Counted from the first letter of the stretch, positions 19,432-32,166 are shown. The stretch: 32,166 nt of DNA from Synechococcus sp. UW140 (GCA_945872185.1 CAMBZX010000011.1:1-32166), one strand, 5' to 3'. Numbers and translations are program-made. Notes: generated by a model from the letters alone, not told the origin.

Positions 19432-20277
19432 TCAGGAGCGAGCCGAGCGGGTGTGGGGAGCCACGAGCAAGGCCAGCAGAAACCCCAACAGCTGCACCAC
19501 CACCACACTCGGGCCCGACGGCAGATCGAAGGCGCCGGAGGCCAGCAGCCCCAGCACCGCACAGCCCGCCCCCAGCAGGGCCGCCACCAGCACATAGGTG
19601 CTGAAGCCACGGCTGACCAGCCGGGAAGCACAGGCGGGGATCACCACGAAGGCACTGATCAACAGCACCCCCACCGCCTTGATCGAAATCGCCACCACCA
19701 CCGCCAGCACAACGATGAACATCAGCCGATGCCAGCCGGCCGCCACCCCGCGCGAGATCGCCAGGGGTTCGTCGATGGTGAGCAGAATCTGGCTGCGGCG
19801 ACTGAGCAGCAGATAGCCGCCGGCACCGAGCAACAGCAGCAGGATCACGCCGAGATCCAGCCAGGAAACGCCGAGGATGTCGCCGAAGAGCAGTTGCTGA
19901 ATGCCGCCCTTGTAGCTGCGCACCCGGCTGAGCAGCAGCACCGCCAGCGCCAGCGACGAGGAATAGACGATGTTGAGCAGGGCGTCGGTGGGCAGTTGGC
20001 TGCGCCCGGCCAGATGGTTGACCCCGAGGGCAAACAGCACGGCGAAGGGAATCAGCACCAGGGTGGGATTCAGGCCGAGCAGGATGCCGAGGCTGATGCC
20101 CAGCAGGGCGGAATGGCCGAGGGCATCGCTGAAAAAAGAAAGCTGACGCAGCACGGCGAAACTGCCGAGCAGCCCGCCCAGCAGGCCGGTGAGCAGGCCG
20201 GCCAGCAGGGCCCGCTGCATGAACGGCAGCGCCAGCAGTTGGGCCAGATGGGCCGGATCAAAGCCTGACTCCAACAT
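19432..20277 (-). CDS. znuB: Zinc/manganese ABC transporter permease
   Basis: ABC-3 permease: LLGGLLGSFAVLRQLSFFSDALGHSALLGISLGILLG...NIVYSSSLALAVLLLSRVRSYKGGIQQLLFGDILGVS...KAVGVLLISAFVVIPACASRL. Confidence 0.9.
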   Translation of the reverse strand: MLESGFDPAHLAQLLALPFMQRALLAGLLTGLLGGLLGSFAVLRQLSFFSDALGHSALLGISLGILLGLNPTLVLIPFAVLFALGVNHLAGRSQLPTDALLNIVYSSSLALAVLLLSRVRSYKGGIQQLLFGDILGVSWLDLGVILLLLLGAGGYLLLSRRSQILLTIDEPLAISRGVAAGWHRLMFIVVLAVVVAISIKAVGVLLISAFVVIPACASRLVSRGFSTYVLVAALLGAGCAVLGLLASGAFDLPSGPSVVVVQLLGFLLALLVAPHTRSARS

Positions 20278-21059
20278 CAACTCCTGCTGGCGCCGGGATG
20301 GTGATGGTGGTAGGCCACCCAGCCGCGGCCATAGAGGCGCTCCAGCTGGGCGGGGCTGAGGGCGTGATCGGGCGTGCCAGAACAGCGCAGGCTGCGATTG
20401 AGGCAGAGCACACCACTGCAGGTGCGGCGTACCATCTCGAGGTCATGGGACACCTGCAGGATCGTCCAGCCCTCACTGCGGCGCAGGTCGAACAGCAGGC
20501 TGTGGAACTGCTCGGCCGCCTGGGCATCGAGGCCCGCCTGGGCCTCATCCAGCACCAGCAGCCGGCGCGGCCGCACCACGCAGAAGGCCAGCAGGACGCG
20601 CTTGAGCTGGCCGGTGGAAAGATCGCTGACCAACCGTTTCGCCAGCGCTTCGCCACCCACCTTGGCCAGGGCCAGGGTCACGGCAGCGCCGCGGGCTCGC
20701 CGGCCGCGCCAGGGCAGGGCCAGACCGGCCCGATCCCAGCCCAGACCGACGAACTCCGCCACGCTGAGCGGAAAGCGACCCTGCAAGGCGATGCTCTGGG
20801 GCAGATAGGCCACCTGGTCGCGCACGGCCGCCGGCAACTGGCCGCGGGCGCCGAGGGCGTGACCCAGCAGCCTCACCTGACCGGCGCGGCGCGGCAGCAC
20901 CCCGAGGATCGCCTGCACCAGGGTGCTCTTGCCGGCCCCGTTGGGGCCCACCAGGGCCGTATCCGATTCGGCCTCGAGAATGAAACTGACGTCTTCCACC
21001 ACCGTGCTGCCCTCACGGCCAATGGTGAGGTGGCTGACTTCGAGAATCATTTCCGCCAT
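20277..21059 (-). CDS. znuC: Zinc/manganese ABC transporter ATP-binding protein
   Basis: Walker A ALVGPNGAGKSTLVQAILG; ABC signature LSTGQLKRVLLAFCVVRPRRLLVLDEAQAGLD. Confidence 0.93.
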   Translation of the reverse strand: MAEMILEVSHLTIGREGSTVVEDVSFILEAESDTALVGPNGAGKSTLVQAILGVLPRRAGQVRLLGHALGARGQLPAAVRDQVAYLPQSIALQGRFPLSVAEFVGLGWDRAGLALPWRGRRARGAAVTLALAKVGGEALAKRLVSDLSTGQLKRVLLAFCVVRPRRLLVLDEAQAGLDAQAAEQFHSLLFDLRRSEGWTILQVSHDLEMVRRTCSGVLCLNRSLRCSGTPDHALSPAQLERLYGRGWVAYHHHHPGASRS

Positions 21060-21105
21060 CGTTTCACCCTACCGAGGGATGGCCTGTTGTCAGCCACAGG
21101 ACGCC

Positions 21106-22173
21106 TCACCGCCCCAGGGCCTGGAGCAGCTGCTGGCCATTGCGGCGCATGGTGCTCAGGTAATAGGACGAAGCCAGGGTGGGATCGGCGGGGGCGGTTT
21201 CCAGTGGATCGAAGCTCACCAAGGGCAGGCCCAGGTCTGTGGCCAGGGCGACGAACGCCTTGCTGCTGGCCTGGGGTTCGCTCACCAGGGCCCGGGCCCG
21301 GCTTTGCCTGGCCCGCCGGCTGAAGCGCTCGAGATCGGCCGCCGACGGTGTCTGATCGGGATCGTCGACCAGGGCCTCATTCAGCAATTGATAGCGCTGG
21401 GCGAAGTAAGGCCCGATGGAGTGGAAGGCCAACAGGGGTTGGCCGGCATGGGGCGCGAACTGCCGGGCCAGATCGCGATCGAGCCGATCGAGCTCCGCCA
21501 GGAAGGTGGCGGCATTGGCGCGGTACCGCGAACGGCAGGCCGGATCGGCCGCGATCAGACCATCGCGGATTGTCGTCACCTGCTGGGCCGCCCGACGGGG
21601 ATCGAGCCAGATGTGCGGATTGACGGGGCCGTGCTGGCTGGCATGGCCGGCTTCAGAGGCGTGGTCGTGATCGTGATCGCCGCCGGGCGCCGCAGTCGGG
21701 TTGGCGATGGGGACGACACCACGACTGCTGTCAATCCGCCGCAACCCGGTGTTGCCCGAGGCGTCTACCAATTTGTCGAGATGGCTCTCCAGCCCGAGGC
21801 CATTGATCACCACCACATCGGCCTGGCTCAGCCGGGCCAGATCGGCGGGTGTGGCCTGCCAGTCGTGGGGGCCGAGATTGGCGGGCACCAAGGAGTCCAC
21901 CTGGGCACAGCCGGCGGCCACGGCCCGGGTGAACAGGGCGACCGGCAACACACTGGCCATCACCTGCAGCGGCTGGGAGCCAGCGGCACGCGGCCGTGGG
22001 GCAGGGGACTTGGCGACACAACCCAACAGCAGCAGCGAGCTCAGCCCAGACCCAATCAACACCCGGCCCAACCGCAAACCCAAGCCCCTGGCGGTCACCA
22101 ACGCCGGCGCCCCAACCACAGCCCCAGACGCAGTCCCAGCCCCAGACAGGAACACCCTCGACCCGAGCATCAC
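21106..22173 (-). CDS. znuA: Zinc ABC transporter substrate-binding lipoprotein
   Basis: Lipobox LLLLGC; LVPANLGPHDWQATPADLARLSQADVVVINGLGLESHLDKL; His-rich loop GGDHDHDHASEAGHASQHG; NPHIWLDPRRAAQQV; LLAFHSIGPYFAQRY. Start may instead be near 22098. Confidence 0.92.
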   Translation of the reverse strand: MMLGSRVFLSGAGTASGAVVGAPALVTARGLGLRLGRVLIGSGLSSLLLLGCVAKSPAPRPRAAGSQPLQVMASVLPVALFTRAVAAGCAQVDSLVPANLGPHDWQATPADLARLSQADVVVINGLGLESHLDKLVDASGNTGLRRIDSSRGVVPIANPTAAPGGDHDHDHASEAGHASQHGPVNPHIWLDPRRAAQQVTTIRDGLIAADPACRSRYRANAATFLAELDRLDRDLARQFAPHAGQPLLAFHSIGPYFAQRYQLLNEALVDDPDQTPSAADLERFSRRARQSRARALVSEPQASSKAFVALATDLGLPLVSFDPLETAPADPTLASSYYLSTMRRNGQQLLQALGR

Positions 22174-22182
22174 AGCAGATCA

Positions 22183-22201
22183 TTGGGAATGGTTCTCATT
22201 C
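22183..22201. promoter_or_regulatory. Fur/Zur-type operator candidate upstream of znuACB
   Basis: Reverse complement AATGAGAACCATTCCCAAT agrees with AATGAGAATNATTCTCATT at most positions; sits between znuA and the divergent gene at 22276. Confidence 0.7.
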
Positions 22202-24140: not shown

Positions 24141-24215
24141 ACCTGGCGCCTGGCTTGTGAGCTGGCCCCTGGCTGTGACCTCGGCACAGGCTTGTGAGCA
24201 CGGCACTGGCCCCTG
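24141..24215. repeat. Degenerate ~19-bp tandem repeat, about 4 units
   Basis: acctggcgcctggcttgtg / agctggcccctggctgtg / acctcggcacaggcttgtg / agcacggcactggcccctg, intergenic. Confidence 0.6.
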
Positions 24216-24364
24216 GGAGTGAACGGTGGACGGGCTGCGAAAGGGCCAACCGTGGCCCACCCGGATCCGGAGCTGCCGAGCCTGGGAGGCGCGCCTGCCC
24301 CCCTTTGAGAATCATGGTCAGGCCAGCGGCGGCTGGCCATCATGGGCTCAATCGTTGCCGGCCC

Positions 24365-24766
24365 ATGGCGTCAGATACGCCTCCACCGCCTCCCCCACCA
24401 GCTCCTTCGCCATCTCCGTCGCCCCTGGCTTCGTCAAGGCTCTCGCCTTCGCCTTCGGTGGAAGCCGGCGCTGCCGCGACCGCAACGGAAGCGCGGCGCC
24501 TGCCGACAGAGGCCGAAATTCAGCGCATTCTGAACAGCCAGCCCAAGGGCCTGGAGCCCCCATCGCCATTTCGAGGCTTCAGCCTTACGGCCATCATGGG
24601 CTATGTCGCCGGCACGGCCATGGTGTTCAGCGGCATCAGCAACCAGGGCAAAACCGCCGACCAACACATCACCCAGGCCGTGAATCTGGCCGGCGGTTTC
24701 ACCGTGATCTGCCTGGCCTCCATCTGCCGTCACAGCAAACGCTTGAGCCAGAAACAGGACAGCTGA
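24365..24766 (+). CDS. Hypothetical small membrane protein with Pro/Ser-rich N-terminus
   Basis: MASDTPPPPPPPAPSPSPSPLASSRLSPSPS...EAEIQRILNSQPKGLEPPSPFRGFSLTAIMGYVAGTAMVFSGISNQGKTADQHITQAVNLAGGFTVICLASICRHSKRL. Confidence 0.68.
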   Translation: MASDTPPPPPPPAPSPSPSPLASSRLSPSPSVEAGAAATATEARRLPTEAEIQRILNSQPKGLEPPSPFRGFSLTAIMGYVAGTAMVFSGISNQGKTADQHITQAVNLAGGFTVICLASICRHSKRLSQKQDS

Positions 24767-26153: not shown

Positions 26154-26306
26154 GGCATCGCCGGCCACTGGCTGAACGCTACCGAGGCGACATCCCGCCT
26201 TGCGGCGGCAGTGATCTACAGCCGCTGACGCCCCAGAGCCCGAGACCACGCCAGCTACAGCCACGGCTGTCTTCAGACTGGGATGATGGCCCCAGTGCCA
26301 CCCACC

Positions 26307-26942
26307 ATGTCCCCCAATCCAGCGGCCTACACCTGCAGCAAGACCTTCAACGGCTTTCCCTGCACCCATCGCCAGTGGCGCCATCCGGGCCATTGCCGCT
26401 TTGTGCACGGCTACAGCCGCAGTTTCCGCTTCTGGTTCCAGGCCAGAAGCCTCGATCAACACGGCTTCGTGGTGGATTTCTCCAGCCTGAAGCACCTGCA
26501 GCAGCGCCTGGCCGAGCAGTTCGATCACACCTTCCTGGCCAACGCCGACGATCCACAACTGGCCACCTGGCAGGCCCTGCATGAGCAGGGCGCCCTCGAT
26601 CTGCGGGTGATGACCAACGTGGGCATGGAGGCCAGTGCCGAGCTGGTGTGGGGTTGGGCCAATGAGCTGCTGCAGGGCCGCGAGGACGGCCGCAGCTGCT
26701 GCTTTCGCGTCGAAGCCCGCGAAAACGAGAAGAACGCCGCCTGCTTCACGGCCATCCCCGCCTGGTTCAGCGGCGCCGCAGCAGGCGACGTCGGTGATGG
26801 CTACCCCGACGACGCCTGGCCGGAACTTCCCTACCGGGAAAGCTCCTACGACGAACCTGTCGACGCCTACGTCAGCAGCGGCGACAGCGCCGACAGCGCC
26901 GAGCCGCGGGCCGACAGCCTGGGCATCTGGGAGGCGCCCTGA
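26307..26942 (+). CDS. 6-carboxytetrahydropterin synthase / PTPS family protein (QueD-like)
   Basis: CRFVHGYSRSFRFWFQARSLDQHGFVVDFSSLKHLQQRLAEQFDHTFLANADDP...NVGMEASAELVWGWANELL. Confidence 0.82.
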   Translation: MSPNPAAYTCSKTFNGFPCTHRQWRHPGHCRFVHGYSRSFRFWFQARSLDQHGFVVDFSSLKHLQQRLAEQFDHTFLANADDPQLATWQALHEQGALDLRVMTNVGMEASAELVWGWANELLQGREDGRSCCFRVEARENEKNAACFTAIPAWFSGAAAGDVGDGYPDDAWPELPYRESSYDEPVDAYVSSGDSADSAEPRADSLGIWEAP

Positions 26943-26952
26943 GCTTGCGGCC

Positions 26953-27915
26953 ATGAACTCCGCCCGCCTGGCCACGGCCTGGGCCCTGTTCCAGGGGCTG
27001 CTGATCGAGGCGTTGCCCTTCCTGTTGATAGGGGTGTTGATCTCGGCCGCCGCCCGCTGGTTCGCCCCCGGCGGCCAGTGGTTGCGACAGCTGCCCTCCC
27101 ACCCCGTGCTCGGACCGCTCAGCGGTGCTGCCCTCGGTTTTGCCCTGCCGGCCTGCGAATGCGGCAACGTGCCCGTCGCCCGCCAGTTGCTGGTGGGGGG
27201 TGCGCCCCTGGGTGCGGCGCTGGGCTTTCTGTTCGCGGCGCCAGTGCTCAATCCAATCGTGCTGGCCAGCACCTGGGCCGCCTTTCCCAACCAGCCCTGG
27301 CTGCTGCTGGCCCGCCCGCTCGGCGCCGTGCTGGTGGCCGTGGGCCTGGCCCTGCTGCTGCGTCTGGTGCCCGAAGCCGAGCTGCTGCAGGCCGATCTGC
27401 TGGCGGAGCGGCGCCTGGCCCTGCCCCTGAGCGAAGTGAGCCTGCTGGAACGCCGCGGCGGCGTGCTCGGTGGCGGCGCGCTGACGGCCGCCCCCGGTCG
27501 GCCGCGCCGACCCTCGCTGGCGGAGCTGTTCCGACACGGCGGCAACGAATTTCTCCAACTGGCCCTGCTGCTGGTGCTGGGCTGCCTGCTGGCCGCCCTG
27601 GTGCAGACCTTCGTGCCGCGCAGCTGGCTGCTGGCGGTGGGTGGCGCCCCCACGCTCTCGATCCTGGCGCTGATGCTGCTGGCGCTGGTGGTGTCGGTGT
27701 GCTCCAGCGTCGACGCCTTCCTGGCCCTGAGCTTCGCCGCCCAGGTGACCCCTGGCGCCCTGCTGGCCTTCCTGCTGCTGGGACCGGTGATCGACCTCAA
27801 ACTGGTGGGCCTGCTGGGGCTGCTGCTGCGGCCCCGGGGCCTGCTGCTGACGATCGCCGGCGCCGGCCTGCTGGTGCTGCTGATCGGCCAGTGGATCAAC
27901 CTCTGGCGCCTATGA
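26953..27915 (+). CDS. YraQ/UPF0718-type permease (COG0701-like)
   Basis: EALPFLLIGVLISAAARWFAPGGQW...GAALGFALPACECGNVPVARQLLVGGAPLGAALGFLFAAPVLNPIVLASTW...SVCSSVDAFLALSF...LLGPVIDLKLVGLLGLLLR. Confidence 0.9.
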   Translation: MNSARLATAWALFQGLLIEALPFLLIGVLISAAARWFAPGGQWLRQLPSHPVLGPLSGAALGFALPACECGNVPVARQLLVGGAPLGAALGFLFAAPVLNPIVLASTWAAFPNQPWLLLARPLGAVLVAVGLALLLRLVPEAELLQADLLAERRLALPLSEVSLLERRGGVLGGGALTAAPGRPRRPSLAELFRHGGNEFLQLALLLVLGCLLAALVQTFVPRSWLLAVGGAPTLSILALMLLALVVSVCSSVDAFLALSFAAQVTPGALLAFLLLGPVIDLKLVGLLGLLLRPRGLLLTIAGAGLLVLLIGQWINLWRL

Positions 27916-28631
27916 ATCCGCTGCCGCTGCGTCCACCCCTGCCGCAACGGGCCGCCCTGCAGCGGGGCCTGCTGCTGGCCCTCTGGGCCCTGGTGCTGCT
28001 GCGCAGCAGCGCCGATGGCCGCCTCGATCTGCTGCTACGCGCCGCCTTCCATCCCCTCGTGGCCCTGGCGGGCCTGCTGCTGCTGCTGCTGGCGCTGGTG
28101 CAGCTGCGGCTGGGCCTGGTTGATGCCGCCGCCGCCAGCGAACGGGCCAGCCGTCGCCAGGGGCTGCTGCTGCTGGTCACCGCCGCCTTCACCGTGGCGG
28201 CGATGGCCCTGCCACCAGCCCCCTCCTTCGCCGAGTTGGCCGGCCAGCGCCCTCGAGACGACACCGCCCAGGAGGACCTGAGCTTCGTGCTGCCCCCCGC
28301 CCAGCGCAGCCTCACCGACTGGGTGCGGCTGCTGCGCAGCCAACCGGATCCGGACCTGTTCGCAGGCGATCCGGTGCGGATCAGCGGGTTCGTGCTGCCG
28401 ATGGCCGGCGAGCCGCCCCAGATCGCCCGGCTGCTGGTGCGCTGCTGCCTGGCCGACGCGGCGCCGGTGGGCCTGCCGGTGCGCTGGCCCGGCCCGCCGC
28501 CGCCGGCGGACCAGTGGCTGCGGCTGGAGGGTCGGATGGCGGTGGCGTCTGGCGTCGACGGCAGGCAACTGGTGGTGCTGCCCAGCCGCATCGAGCTGAT
28601 CGCCCGGCCGGCCCGGCCCCTGGAGCCGTGA
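27912..28631 (+). CDS. TIGR03943 / DUF1980 family membrane protein
   Basis: Two hydrophobic segments, then VRISGFVLPMAGEPPQIARLLVRCCLADAAPVGLPVRWPGPPPPADQWLRLEGRM; ATGA overlap with the permease gene. Confidence 0.85.
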   Translation: MNPLPLRPPLPQRAALQRGLLLALWALVLLRSSADGRLDLLLRAAFHPLVALAGLLLLLLALVQLRLGLVDAAAASERASRRQGLLLLVTAAFTVAAMALPPAPSFAELAGQRPRDDTAQEDLSFVLPPAQRSLTDWVRLLRSQPDPDLFAGDPVRISGFVLPMAGEPPQIARLLVRCCLADAAPVGLPVRWPGPPPPADQWLRLEGRMAVASGVDGRQLVVLPSRIELIARPARPLEP

Positions 28632-30001
28632 AGGCCCCGCGCCGCCGGCCCCGAGTGGCGTTGGCTCTGGCCCTCGGCCTGCCCACCCTGCTGGTGCTGA
28701 TCCAGCAACAGGCCCTGCAGCGGCAGCCACCCCGGCTGCAGCGGCTGGCCAACGCCGCCGCCAGCTCGGGGCCGGCGGCGCTGCAGGCCCGCTTCAGCCG
28801 GCCGATGGACCTGGCCAGCCTCCAGAACGCCAGTGCGCTGCAGCCGCACCTGAGCCATCGCTGGCTGGGTTCCAGTGAGGCGCTGCTGCTGACGCTGACG
28901 GCGGGCCAGCGGCTGGAGCAGCCGCTGCAGCTGCGGCTGGCGGGCCGCGACCGGCGCGGCCTGGCCCTGCAGCCCCGGCTCTGGCATTGGGATCCCAGGC
29001 CCCGGGTGCTGGCGGTGGTGCCCGTCAGCGGCGGTGAGCAGCTGCAGCTGCGCGAGCACGACGGCTCCTGGCGATCGCTGTCGCCGATCTGGCCGCGCAT
29101 TCCCGTGCTGGAGCCCCTCGGCGACGGCACCGGGGTGGCCCTCGCCAGCCAGGATGTGCTCGGGGCCTACCACCTGTTCCGCATCCCCCTGCAGCAGCGC
29201 AACCTGGTCGCCAGCCCCCAGCACCTAGGGCCGGTGCGGGCCGCTGCACCCCAGGCGCTCGATCGCAGACCGCTGCTGTTTGCCCATCTCAGCAGCAACC
29301 GCCGCGGTGATCTGCTGGTGCAGAGCAGCAGCAGCAGCGAAGGGGCTGGCCATGAAGGGAATGGCAGCCGTGCCCGCTTGTGGCGCTCCCAGGGGGGAGG
29401 CAGCCAGACGCTGGCGCTGAGTGCCAGCGGGCCGATGCGCCTGCTGCCCGAAGGGGATGCGGTGGTGGTGCCCGGTTCTGAGGGCCTCAGCCTGCAGGCG
29501 CTGCCGCCGCAGCCACCACACCTGCAGACCCTGCCAGGTAACCGCGATCTCAGCTCCTTCTGCCCCCGCTCCGGCCGCGCCCTGCTGCTGCGCCACTGGC
29601 CCGACTACCGCCGCTCGCTGGAGCTGGTGGAACCGGGGCAGGCCCCTCGCCAGCTCTGGATCGGCACGGAAGCCCTGGTGGCCAGCGCCTGTGCCGGCGG
29701 CGGCGAGCGGATCTGGGCCCTGCTGATCGACGGCACCGGCCAGCCGGAGCTCACCCTGCTGGCCCTTGACCGCCGCGGCCAGGTGCTGCGCCGCCAGCGC
29801 CTGACGGGCTGGGAACTGGAGCCCGGCACCGGCCTCAGCTTTGATCCCAGCGGCGATCGGCTGCTGGCCGCCCTGCGCCGCCTCGGCCCGATGCAGCGGC
29901 CGCCCCCGCCGGCCCAGGCGGTGTTGATCGATGCCCGCAGCCTGCAGCTTCAACCCCTGCAGCGGCCGGTGCGCCAGGTGATCTGGTTGCCGGCGGGGTA
30001 G
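28628..30001 (+). CDS. Membrane-anchored Ig-like/beta-propeller protein of unknown function
   Basis: N-terminal TM ALALALGLPTLLVLI; ARFSRPMDLASLQNASALQPHL (SbsA Ig-like pattern), then TolB/WD-like blades (RIPVLEPLGDGTGVALASQDV, SFDPSGDRLLAALRRLG). GTG start overlaps the previous stop. Confidence 0.75.
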   Translation: MKAPRRRPRVALALALGLPTLLVLIQQQALQRQPPRLQRLANAAASSGPAALQARFSRPMDLASLQNASALQPHLSHRWLGSSEALLLTLTAGQRLEQPLQLRLAGRDRRGLALQPRLWHWDPRPRVLAVVPVSGGEQLQLREHDGSWRSLSPIWPRIPVLEPLGDGTGVALASQDVLGAYHLFRIPLQQRNLVASPQHLGPVRAAAPQALDRRPLLFAHLSSNRRGDLLVQSSSSSEGAGHEGNGSRARLWRSQGGGSQTLALSASGPMRLLPEGDAVVVPGSEGLSLQALPPQPPHLQTLPGNRDLSSFCPRSGRALLLRHWPDYRRSLELVEPGQAPRQLWIGTEALVASACAGGGERIWALLIDGTGQPELTLLALDRRGQVLRRQRLTGWELEPGTGLSFDPSGDRLLAALRRLGPMQRPPPPAQAVLIDARSLQLQPLQRPVRQVIWLPAG

Positions 30002-30023
30002 AACCGGAGAGCGACACGCCGCC

Positions 30024-30440
30024 ATGCCTGCCAACACCGATCTGCCGCTGACACCCCGCCAGGAGTTGCTGCTGGCGGAACTTCGTGCTGCCGAGCAGGA
30101 GCTTTCGGGCCAGGAGCTGCATGCGCGCCTGCGGGGTGGGGCCGGCACCATGGGCCTGGCCACCGTCTATCGCCATCTGCGCCAACTGCAGCAGAAGGGG
30201 CTGGTGCGCTGCCGCCACCTGCCCAGTGGCGAAGCCCTGTTTGCCCCCACCGAGCGGGACGAGCACCATCTCACCTGTGTCGACTGCGGCAGCACCGTGC
30301 GGCTCTCCCACTGCCCGGTGCATGACGTGCATCTGCACGACGCCGACCTGGCCGGCTTCCTACCCCTGTTCCACACCCTGGAGTTCTTCGGTCTCTGCAG
30401 TGGCTGCCGCGACCGTCAGCCGACCGCGGCCGGCAGCTGA
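30024..30440 (+). CDS. zur: Fur-family metalloregulator, probably Zur
   Basis: LTPRQELLLAELRAAEQELSGQELHARLR...MGLATVYRHLRQLQQKGLVRCRHLPSGEALFAPTERDEHHLTCVDCGSTVRL...LFHTLEFFGLCSGC. Two CxxC motifs. Confidence 0.88.
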   Translation: MPANTDLPLTPRQELLLAELRAAEQELSGQELHARLRGGAGTMGLATVYRHLRQLQQKGLVRCRHLPSGEALFAPTERDEHHLTCVDCGSTVRLSHCPVHDVHLHDADLAGFLPLFHTLEFFGLCSGCRDRQPTAAGS

Positions 30441-30481: not shown

Positions 30482-32166
30482 ATGCCTGTCTCCCAGCGGC
30501 CCTGGTGGCCCCATTGTTCCAATCGCTGGCTAACGGGCCTCGGCACCCTGCTGCTGCTGCTGACGCTCCTGGCGGGCCCCGGGCTGCCGGGGGGCAGGGC
30601 TGAGGGCAGCAAGGGGTCGGTGGCCAGCCCCGCCGCGCTGGGCAACCCGGGCGCCAGCCCCCACACCGGCGACAGCAACGCTGGTGGTGCCGGCAGCTTC
30701 CAGCTGGCCAAAGTGCGCATCCTGGGCGTGCCCGTGCTGACCGTGGCCGCCCCCACCGTGGCGGGCGACGGCCAAGGGCCTGATGCCAGCACCCGCGCCC
30801 AGGTGATCGAAGGCAACCTGGCCCTGCTCTACCAGCGGCGCCAGATCTGCAGCGGCGGCGAATCCCTGGCCGAAACCTTCCTGGAGCAGGGGTTCCTGCA
30901 TGGCCAGGAGCGGGCCTGTGACAGCGACAATCTCGGCCTGCTCGGTGATCCAGCCGCCCTGCAGGTGGCGGTGGTGCGTGACGGCAGCGGGCCGAACCGG
31001 CTCGTGGCCCGGGTGCCTGGACGCGCCCAGCCCCTGCCCCTGCTCACCGTCACCGACGAGGACGTGCGCCTCAACGGCATGGGTGCCGACCGCCTGGCGC
31101 AGCGCTGGCGCAGCCTGCTCGAACGGCGGCTGCGCTTCGCCCGCGAGCTGATGCGTCCCGAGAACCTGCGGCGGCGGCTCGCCCTGGTGATCAAGGCGGA
31201 GCTGGGGCTGGCGATCGCGATCGCCCTGGTGCTGGGCCTCTGGCGCCTCAGCCGCCATCAGCTGCAGCGCCAGGAGGGGCGCCTGGAGCTGGGCCGCTGC
31301 ACGCGGCGCCAGCGTTTGCGGCTGCATGCCCTGCATTACCTCAGCCGTGGCCTGATGGCCACCGTGCTGACCCTGATCTTCGCCATGGCCGGGGTTGCCC
31401 TGTTCGCCATTCCCGGCCAGGTGCCCCGGGCCCTTGATCTGCTGCTGGAGCCCTGGGGCATCACCGCCAAGCTGATTCTGGGCTGGATCGTGAACACCGC
31501 GCTGAAGGGGCTGGCGGAGCTGCTGCTGCGGCAGTGGGCCGGCAATGTCAATGTGCCGGTGGCGCGGCGCGCCCGCCGCGATCAACGCTTCCTCAGCCTG
31601 CGGCTGGTGTTCCGGCGGCTGATCGATCTTGTGGTGGTCTCCTCGGTGGGCTTGTGGATCCTCAGTGAACTGCCGGGGGTGGCCGAACTCTCCGGCAGCG
31701 CCCTGCTGGCCAGTGGCGCCCTGCTCGGCGCCCTGGCGATCGTGTTCCAGGGACTGCTGCGGGATTTCGTCTCCGGGCTGGTGCTGCTGTTCGACGATCG
31801 CTACGCCATCGGCGACAGCGTCGAGATCCATGGCTTCACGGGCGAGGTGCTCGACATCGGGCTGCTCAGCACCGAGTTGCGCTGCCTCGATCAACGGGTG
31901 GTGGTGATTCAGAACAGTGAGTGCGGCAAGGTGGTGAACCACACCAAGTTGCGCTCCGGGGTGGAGCTGCAGCTGGTGCTGTCCCACGCCGTGCGCCAGC
32001 TGCCGCGGGTGCTGGCCCTGCTGGAGGCGGAGGCGACCCGGTTCGCGGCCGATCCCAGCTGGGCGAGCGTGCTGCTCGAAGCGCCCCAGCTGCGGGGCAT
32101 CAAAGCCGTGACCCCTGAGGGCATCACCATCAGCCTGCTGCTGATCTGCCAGGCCGGCCAGCAGCA
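30482..32166 (+). CDS. Mechanosensitive ion channel (MscS) family protein, partial at the right edge
   Basis: Signal/TM N-terminus; ALLASGALLGALAIVFQGLLRDFVSGLVLLFDDRYAIGDSVEIHGFTGEVLDIGLLSTELRCLDQRVVVIQNSECGKVVNHTK. Confidence 0.9.
   Translation, partial: MPVSQRPWWPHCSNRWLTGLGTLLLLLTLLAGPGLPGGRAEGSKGSVASPAALGNPGASPHTGDSNAGGAGSFQLAKVRILGVPVLTVAAPTVAGDGQGPDASTRAQVIEGNLALLYQRRQICSGGESLAETFLEQGFLHGQERACDSDNLGLLGDPAALQVAVVRDGSGPNRLVARVPGRAQPLPLLTVTDEDVRLNGMGADRLAQRWRSLLERRLRFARELMRPENLRRRLALVIKAELGLAIAIALVLGLWRLSRHQLQRQEGRLELGRCTRRQRLRLHALHYLSRGLMATVLTLIFAMAGVALFAIPGQVPRALDLLLEPWGITAKLILGWIVNTALKGLAELLLRQWAGNVNVPVARRARRDQRFLSLRLVFRRLIDLVVVSSVGLWILSELPGVAELSGSALLASGALLGALAIVFQGLLRDFVSGLVLLFDDRYAIGDSVEIHGFTGEVLDIGLLSTELRCLDQRVVVIQNSECGKVVNHTKLRSGVELQLVLSHAVRQLPRVLALLEAEATRFAADPSWASVLLEAPQLRGIKAVTPEGITISLLLICQAGQQ

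Follow-up and report, generated by a model that had tools for sequence, protein, structure and literature searches.

The window, the whole 32,166-nt stretch of Synechococcus sp. UW140 DNA that we analysed, contains a compact run of four plus-strand genes. An ArsP_1 permease, a TIGR03943/DUF1980 protein and a membrane-anchored Ig-like/beta-propeller protein, here called PROP, make up what we term the trio, and a Fur-family gene follows. An initial annotation of this DNA had described four plus-strand genes with two 4-nt overlaps and a 22-nt gap; all four ORFs were confirmed and the junctions reproduced. Its account of the neighbourhood was sound for these genes but overlooked a PTPS/QueD-like gene and znuABC. 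The features are as follows.

19441-20406, minus strand: znuB, ABC permease (tblastn match to relatives, which themselves match PF00950)
20277-21059, minus strand: znuC, ABC ATPase (PF00005, 84 bits)
21106-22173, minus strand: znuA, periplasmic zinc-binding protein (PF01297, 219 bits)
22184-22198, no strand assigned: Zur box TGGGAATGGTTCTCA, just upstream of znuA (top PWM match in the whole window, 20.4 bits)
26283-26942, plus strand: PTPS/QueD-like gene (PF01242, 84 bits)
26953-27915, plus strand: ArsP_1 (DUF318) permease, 320 aa, first gene of the trio (PF03773, 191.7 bits against a gathering threshold of 32.3)
27912-28631, plus strand: TIGR03943/DUF1980 protein, 239 aa (TIGR03943, 145 bits against a cut-off of 88.8)
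28628-30001, plus strand: PROP, membrane-anchored Ig-like and beta-propeller protein, 457 aa (from its predicted structure; outside Pfam and NCBIfam families)
30024-30440, plus strand: zur, orthologue of SynZur (SYNW2401) (PF01475 FUR, 57 bits; PDB 7ne9)
30482-32164, plus strand: MscS-type channel (PF00924)

Within the trio, the permease and TIGR03943 genes overlap by 4 nt (ATGA), as do the TIGR03943 and PROP genes (GTGA), and 22 nt separate PROP from zur. The arrangement is not due to chance, for other members of the family share both the overlaps and the order of the genes. Only 10 nt lie between the end of the PTPS/QueD-like gene and the permease, a position this gene keeps in most freshwater relatives, and the MscS-type gene begins 41 nt after zur; with gaps this short, the genes from PTPS/QueD-like to MscS may form a single six-gene transcript. 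A scan for sigma-70 promoters and terminators gave no signal above chance. The MscS-type channel neighbours zur only in close relatives and is outside the conserved module. The znuABC genes (19441-22173) lie some 4.8 kb upstream of the trio on the opposite strand. QueD-like enzymes are zinc proteins whose genes are known to adjoin zinc genes, an observation relevant to the gene at 26283-26942; it is a PTPS/QueD-like paralogue, a tandem-PTPS ORF being present elsewhere in the same genome (C13).

Both membrane proteins of the permease/TIGR03943 pair carry conserved cysteines. In the permease, the CECGN and CSxxDAF motifs are near-invariant among 30 sequences from within and beyond the Cyanobiaceae. 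The TIGR03943 protein is predicted to combine N-terminal transmembrane helices with a C-terminal OB-like barrel bearing a Cys-Cys pair at positions 178-179, part of a Cys-Cys-x-x-Asp motif that is near-invariant among 34 sequences of similar breadth. These motifs suggest metal or thiol chemistry. Structure searches did not identify the barrel further: the model is of medium confidence (pLDDT 71.8), and the OB-fold matches appeared only at E values of 1.5e-3 or above, with nothing under 1e-3. Apparently split TIGR03943 or permease frames were met in RCC307 (L017/L064) and at G174:C1:806822-807773 and G071:C1:2332554-2333223, reflecting either frameshift or sequencing error.

PROP had been described as an anchored Ig-propeller, and its AlphaFold2 model (mean pLDDT 87.6, from a 16-sequence alignment) bears this out, with a single N-terminal transmembrane helix (residues 9-31), an Ig-like domain (37-121) and a beta-propeller (126-454). 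The domain names follow our reading of the strand pattern in the model, together with structure matches and the profile scores of remote homologues, which score on the Ig-like Pfam model Big_5 and, in two cases and weakly, on the DPPIV_N/PD40 propeller models. PROP itself matches nothing in Pfam or NCBIfam and no PDB sequence significantly, and structural searches of PDB and viral collections returned generic propellers (TolB, lactonase-like) and no family. TolB, a periplasmic beta-propeller, is among the best of these at E values near 1e-7; with TM-scores of about 0.4-0.5 and identity of about 15% or less, the fold is shared and the family is not, and PROP differs further in adding a transmembrane anchor and an Ig-like domain. 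PROP was also considered as a zinc-binding protein, a proposal that we reject because no His/Cys cluster is conserved class-wide; C312, C355 and H323 are invariant only within the family alignment.

The initial annotation took the propeller to be a third component of the pair. Across 201 sampled Cyanobiaceae genomes, PROP, the permease and the TIGR03943 protein each occur in 109, and the three sets are nearly identical; the differing genomes that we noted, G192 and G188, are plausibly accounted for by a contig end and an incomplete assembly. We checked relatives for pairs lacking a neighbouring propeller gene, and the proposal was not refuted. In 63 of 67 loci the TIGR03943 and PROP genes share exactly 4 nt, whereas the permease/TIGR03943 spacing is variable, so that the coupling of PROP to the TIGR03943 gene is at least as tight as that of the permease. 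Furthermore, the listed genomes of genus g8 have PROP and the pair on different contigs and retain both. One genome (G009, locus L069) represents a natural deletion, in which the zinc island is intact (znuA, barrel gene, znuC, zur, znuB, QueD, HisIE) and precisely the trio is missing. Class-wide, TIGR03943 is present in 209 of 242 cyanobacterial genomes. Of the 30 best-scoring loci, some of which are incomplete, 19 have a remote PROP homologue of about 500 aa after the pair, and so do 9 of 20 larger loci picked across families, a set that partly overlaps the first. The module is therefore wider than the picocyanobacteria, and co-occurrence, conserved overlap and co-retention when unlinked make the trio a conserved unit across cyanobacteria with PROP as its genuine third component. 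We found nothing on PROP or on the zinc context of the pair, and no assigned function for the trio, in the open-access literature, to which our search was confined; both the subunit and the context appear to be undescribed.

The Fur-family gene had been called Zur-like, and it is a true Zur. Its best PDB match is SynZur (7ne9, 163 bits; next structure, 72 bits), and all eight zinc ligands are retained: the sensory residues D79, H81, C97 and H117, corresponding to D77, H79, C95 and H115 of SynZur, are invariant in 11 orthologues, as is the structural Cys4 site (C85, C88, C125, C128). However, the picture of a Zur-linked operon as the defining feature of the locus was not supported. Zur occurs in 172 of the 201 Cyanobiaceae genomes, many of them without the trio, and in the marine genera g5 and g34 zur is distant from the trio, znuABC being found there instead; zur is thus not always the fourth gene. 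Our PWM scan of the window found its sole strong box at znuA and none near 26283 or 26953, which leads us to reject direct Zur control of the window trio through a box at the PTPS/QueD-like gene or the permease. Zur-box-like sites upstream of the permease occur only in a few lineages (L017/L018/L064 and L088, with weaker sites in L093 and L099). The second-best site in the window (24306-24320, TGAGAATCATGGTCA, 14.7 bits) lies close to the 5′ end of a short ORF (24194-24766) whose predicted product is a membrane protein; the site is conserved in L004 (position 1675). Similar sites stand 38-48 nt upstream of porin-like genes after zur (L008 7902, L012 10681, L015 10897), which suggests that these genes are under Zur control in freshwater relatives.

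Zinc had been named as the metal to suspect, and the wider neighbourhood upholds this on broader grounds. We annotated 70 PROP-bearing loci, which cover every one of the 22 genera in the family sample that carry the trio. A znuA, znuB, znuC or zur gene lies within 3.7 kb of the trio at 64 of the 70 loci and in 20 of the 22 genera, the exceptions being g8 and g52. Rough arithmetic (about four such loci, each spanning about 10 kb, in 2.7 Mb) puts the chance rate of such linkage at around 1-2%, an estimate and not a test, as related genomes are non-independent. The trio and zinc genes are combined in at least six kinds of arrangement:

PROP followed by zur, as in the window
PROP convergent with znuBCA, with zur beyond
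znuBCA and the permease diverging from a single Zur box that lies between them, in RCC307 (L017); znuA and the permease likewise diverge and share one box in L018, L064 and L088
PROP in convergent orientation to znuA and the gene for a His-rich outer-membrane barrel, in marine genus g5
permease-TIGR03943-PROP-znuC-znuB-znuA, all co-directional, in g34 (L054, L087)
zur divergent from the permease

A linkage that outlasts so many rearrangements favours a functional tie over a frozen gene order. The zinc link is thus stronger than had been claimed, and of a different kind, adjacency to zur not being universal. The family's zinc island includes znuABC, zur, a COG0523 GTPase and the His-rich barrel. 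Among 20 trio or pair loci sampled from other cyanobacterial families, none had recognisable znu or zur neighbours; the zinc context is therefore not a class-wide property, and zinc may not be the general substrate. At one locus (L165), the Fur gene adjoining PROP is nearer to the other Fur paralogue of the window genome (L001) than to Zur. A further locus, L005, is titled as a Bifidobacterium breve MAG; its DNA is clearly cyanobacterial, with about 90% protein identity to the window, and the assembly is mislabelled.

The barrel gene merits mention in its own right. A His-rich, outer-membrane beta-barrel-like gene resembling SYNW0972 follows znuA in marine genomes (L051-L055 and L071-L087; for example, L072 8327-9430), and in RCC307 it carries a Zur box of its own (L017, position 8926). 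Its product is a candidate zinc-specific outer-membrane pore.

Taken together, these observations indicate that in picocyanobacteria the trio is probably an uncharacterised part of zinc handling. The permease superfamily, with SO_0444 and ArsP among its members, has a record of metal and metalloid efflux, and this record, combined with the cysteine motifs, points to a thiol-based metal carrier. We propose that the permease, the TIGR03943 protein and PROP form one inner-membrane complex moving a thiophilic metal ion, zinc in the case of picocyanobacteria, and we give this model about an even chance of being correct. The permease would carry the ion through its CECGN and CSxxDAF motifs; the TIGR03943 protein would sit beside it and present the paired-cysteine site on its barrel domain; and PROP, held by its one-helix anchor, would provide an Ig/propeller platform in the periplasm that may gate the carrier or dock a partner protein, the whole module having been retained inside the family's zinc island. 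Complex formation, zinc as substrate and the direction of transport are what we infer from gene content, overlaps, co-occurrence, neighbourhood, conserved cysteines and predicted folds.

With regard to direction, we lean towards the trio exporting or redistributing excess zinc rather than importing it. Three points underlie this preference: SO_0444, a distant relative of the permease, is required under zinc and copper stress (PMC3219624), no orthologue of a zinc efflux pump is known in Synechococcus WH8102, and the trio is absent from reduced, Prochlorococcus-like genomes that keep zur and znuA, cultured Prochlorococcus being more zinc-sensitive than Synechococcus (PMC8374608). That absence may be plain genome reduction. 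The trio is not the sole possible exporter, as CDF-family transporters co-occur with it. We also considered a relation to the zinc exoprotein ZepA and rejected it, the protein and its context both being different.

The closest competitor to the export-leaning complex, and one that we regard as doubtful, is that the trio is a Zur-repressed accessory of zinc import, produced with ZnuABC when zinc is low. In the few lineages that have a Zur-box-like site upstream of the permease, this site would imply low-zinc expression, which fits import better than export, and the co-directional order of the trio and znuCBA in g34 agrees with this. Most lineages, the window included, nevertheless have no Zur box at the permease. 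Organisms with Prochlorococcus-like genomes live in zinc-poor water, yet these genomes keep znuA and zur and dispense with the trio.

Expression data from WH8102 also bear on the import reading. The SYNW0968-0973 cluster, in which znuB, znuC and znuA are SYNW0969, SYNW0970 and SYNW0971, is upregulated in the zur mutant, and SYNW0970-0973 also rise at low zinc (PMC9337993). Judging from gene order in g5 relatives, SYNW0972 would be the outer-membrane barrel and SYNW0973 is probably PROP; the latter assignment rests on the relatives' gene order, WH8102 lying outside the genomes searched, and in one g5 genome (L083) about 2.8 kb separates the barrel gene from PROP. Induction of SYNW0973 in both conditions would favour an import accessory. 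However, the published SynZur regulon comprises only SYNW0968-0973 and bmtA/SYNW0360, with SYNW0973 left without a function and the permease and TIGR03943 genes unmentioned (PMC9337993), so that SYNW0973 alone is reported and the two genes behind it are not. As PROP is convergent with SYNW0972, the apparent induction may be antisense read-through from the strongly derepressed znuA-SYNW0972 genes; the WH8102 RNA library was strand-specific with its counting mode unstated (PMC9337993).

We consider it unlikely that the trio is instead a general envelope-stress or cell-surface transporter of a non-metal substrate, with its place in the zinc island merely inherited synteny. The relatives of the pair, ScfAB in streptococci and YcgRQ in B. 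subtilis, have been linked to acid or envelope stress and have no known substrate (PMC5584981), and the trio loci sampled from other families lack zinc neighbours. Against this, zinc linkage maintained in 20 of 22 genera over at least six arrangements exceeds what frozen synteny would lead us to expect, and the cysteine motifs shared out between the permease and the TIGR03943 protein point to chemistry with metals or thiols. Finally, zur could be a coincidental read-through partner sharing a transcript and not a pathway with the trio, in keeping with its presence in many trio-less genomes and its distance from the trio in g5 and g34, but loci without a neighbouring zur usually have znuABC beside the trio, making this highly improbable.

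The permease/TIGR03943 pair is widespread in bacteria and matters for streptococcal fitness, its substrate being unrecognised. Here, in abundant marine and freshwater phototrophs, the pair is joined by a conserved third subunit, and its genomic surroundings consistently point to zinc. This bears both on the cargo of the pair and on the disposal of zinc by marine Synechococcus, in which no efflux pump is recognised, and it offers a likely identity for SYNW0973, a Zur-responsive gene left unexplained by the WH8102 study.

Comparison with known systems places the module within a broader landscape. The WH8102 SynZur regulon resembles it in having an orthologous Zur, the same type of Zur box at znuA and, in related marine genomes, znuA and the SYNW0972-like gene adjoining PROP. 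The SO_0444 Cu/Zn efflux permease of Shewanella oneidensis (NF033936) belongs to the same broad family, and the window permease aligns over nearly its full length, yet it falls far outside NF033936 itself (67 bits against a cut-off of 300), out-of-family permease homologues reaching 88-92 bits; SO_0444 differs in lying in an operon with a ZntR-like regulator (PMC3219624). Parallels to the pair itself are YcgR/YcgQ of Bacillus subtilis, an organism positive for TIGR03943, and ScfA/ScfB of Streptococcus, in which a permease is followed by a TIGR03943/DUF1980 protein (PMC5584981). The same adjacency and order are found in the window. We take these systems to share a family relation with the cyanobacterial pair; whereas they are bicistronic, the cyanobacterial module adds an overlapping Ig/propeller gene and, in the Cyanobiaceae, a position among zinc genes.
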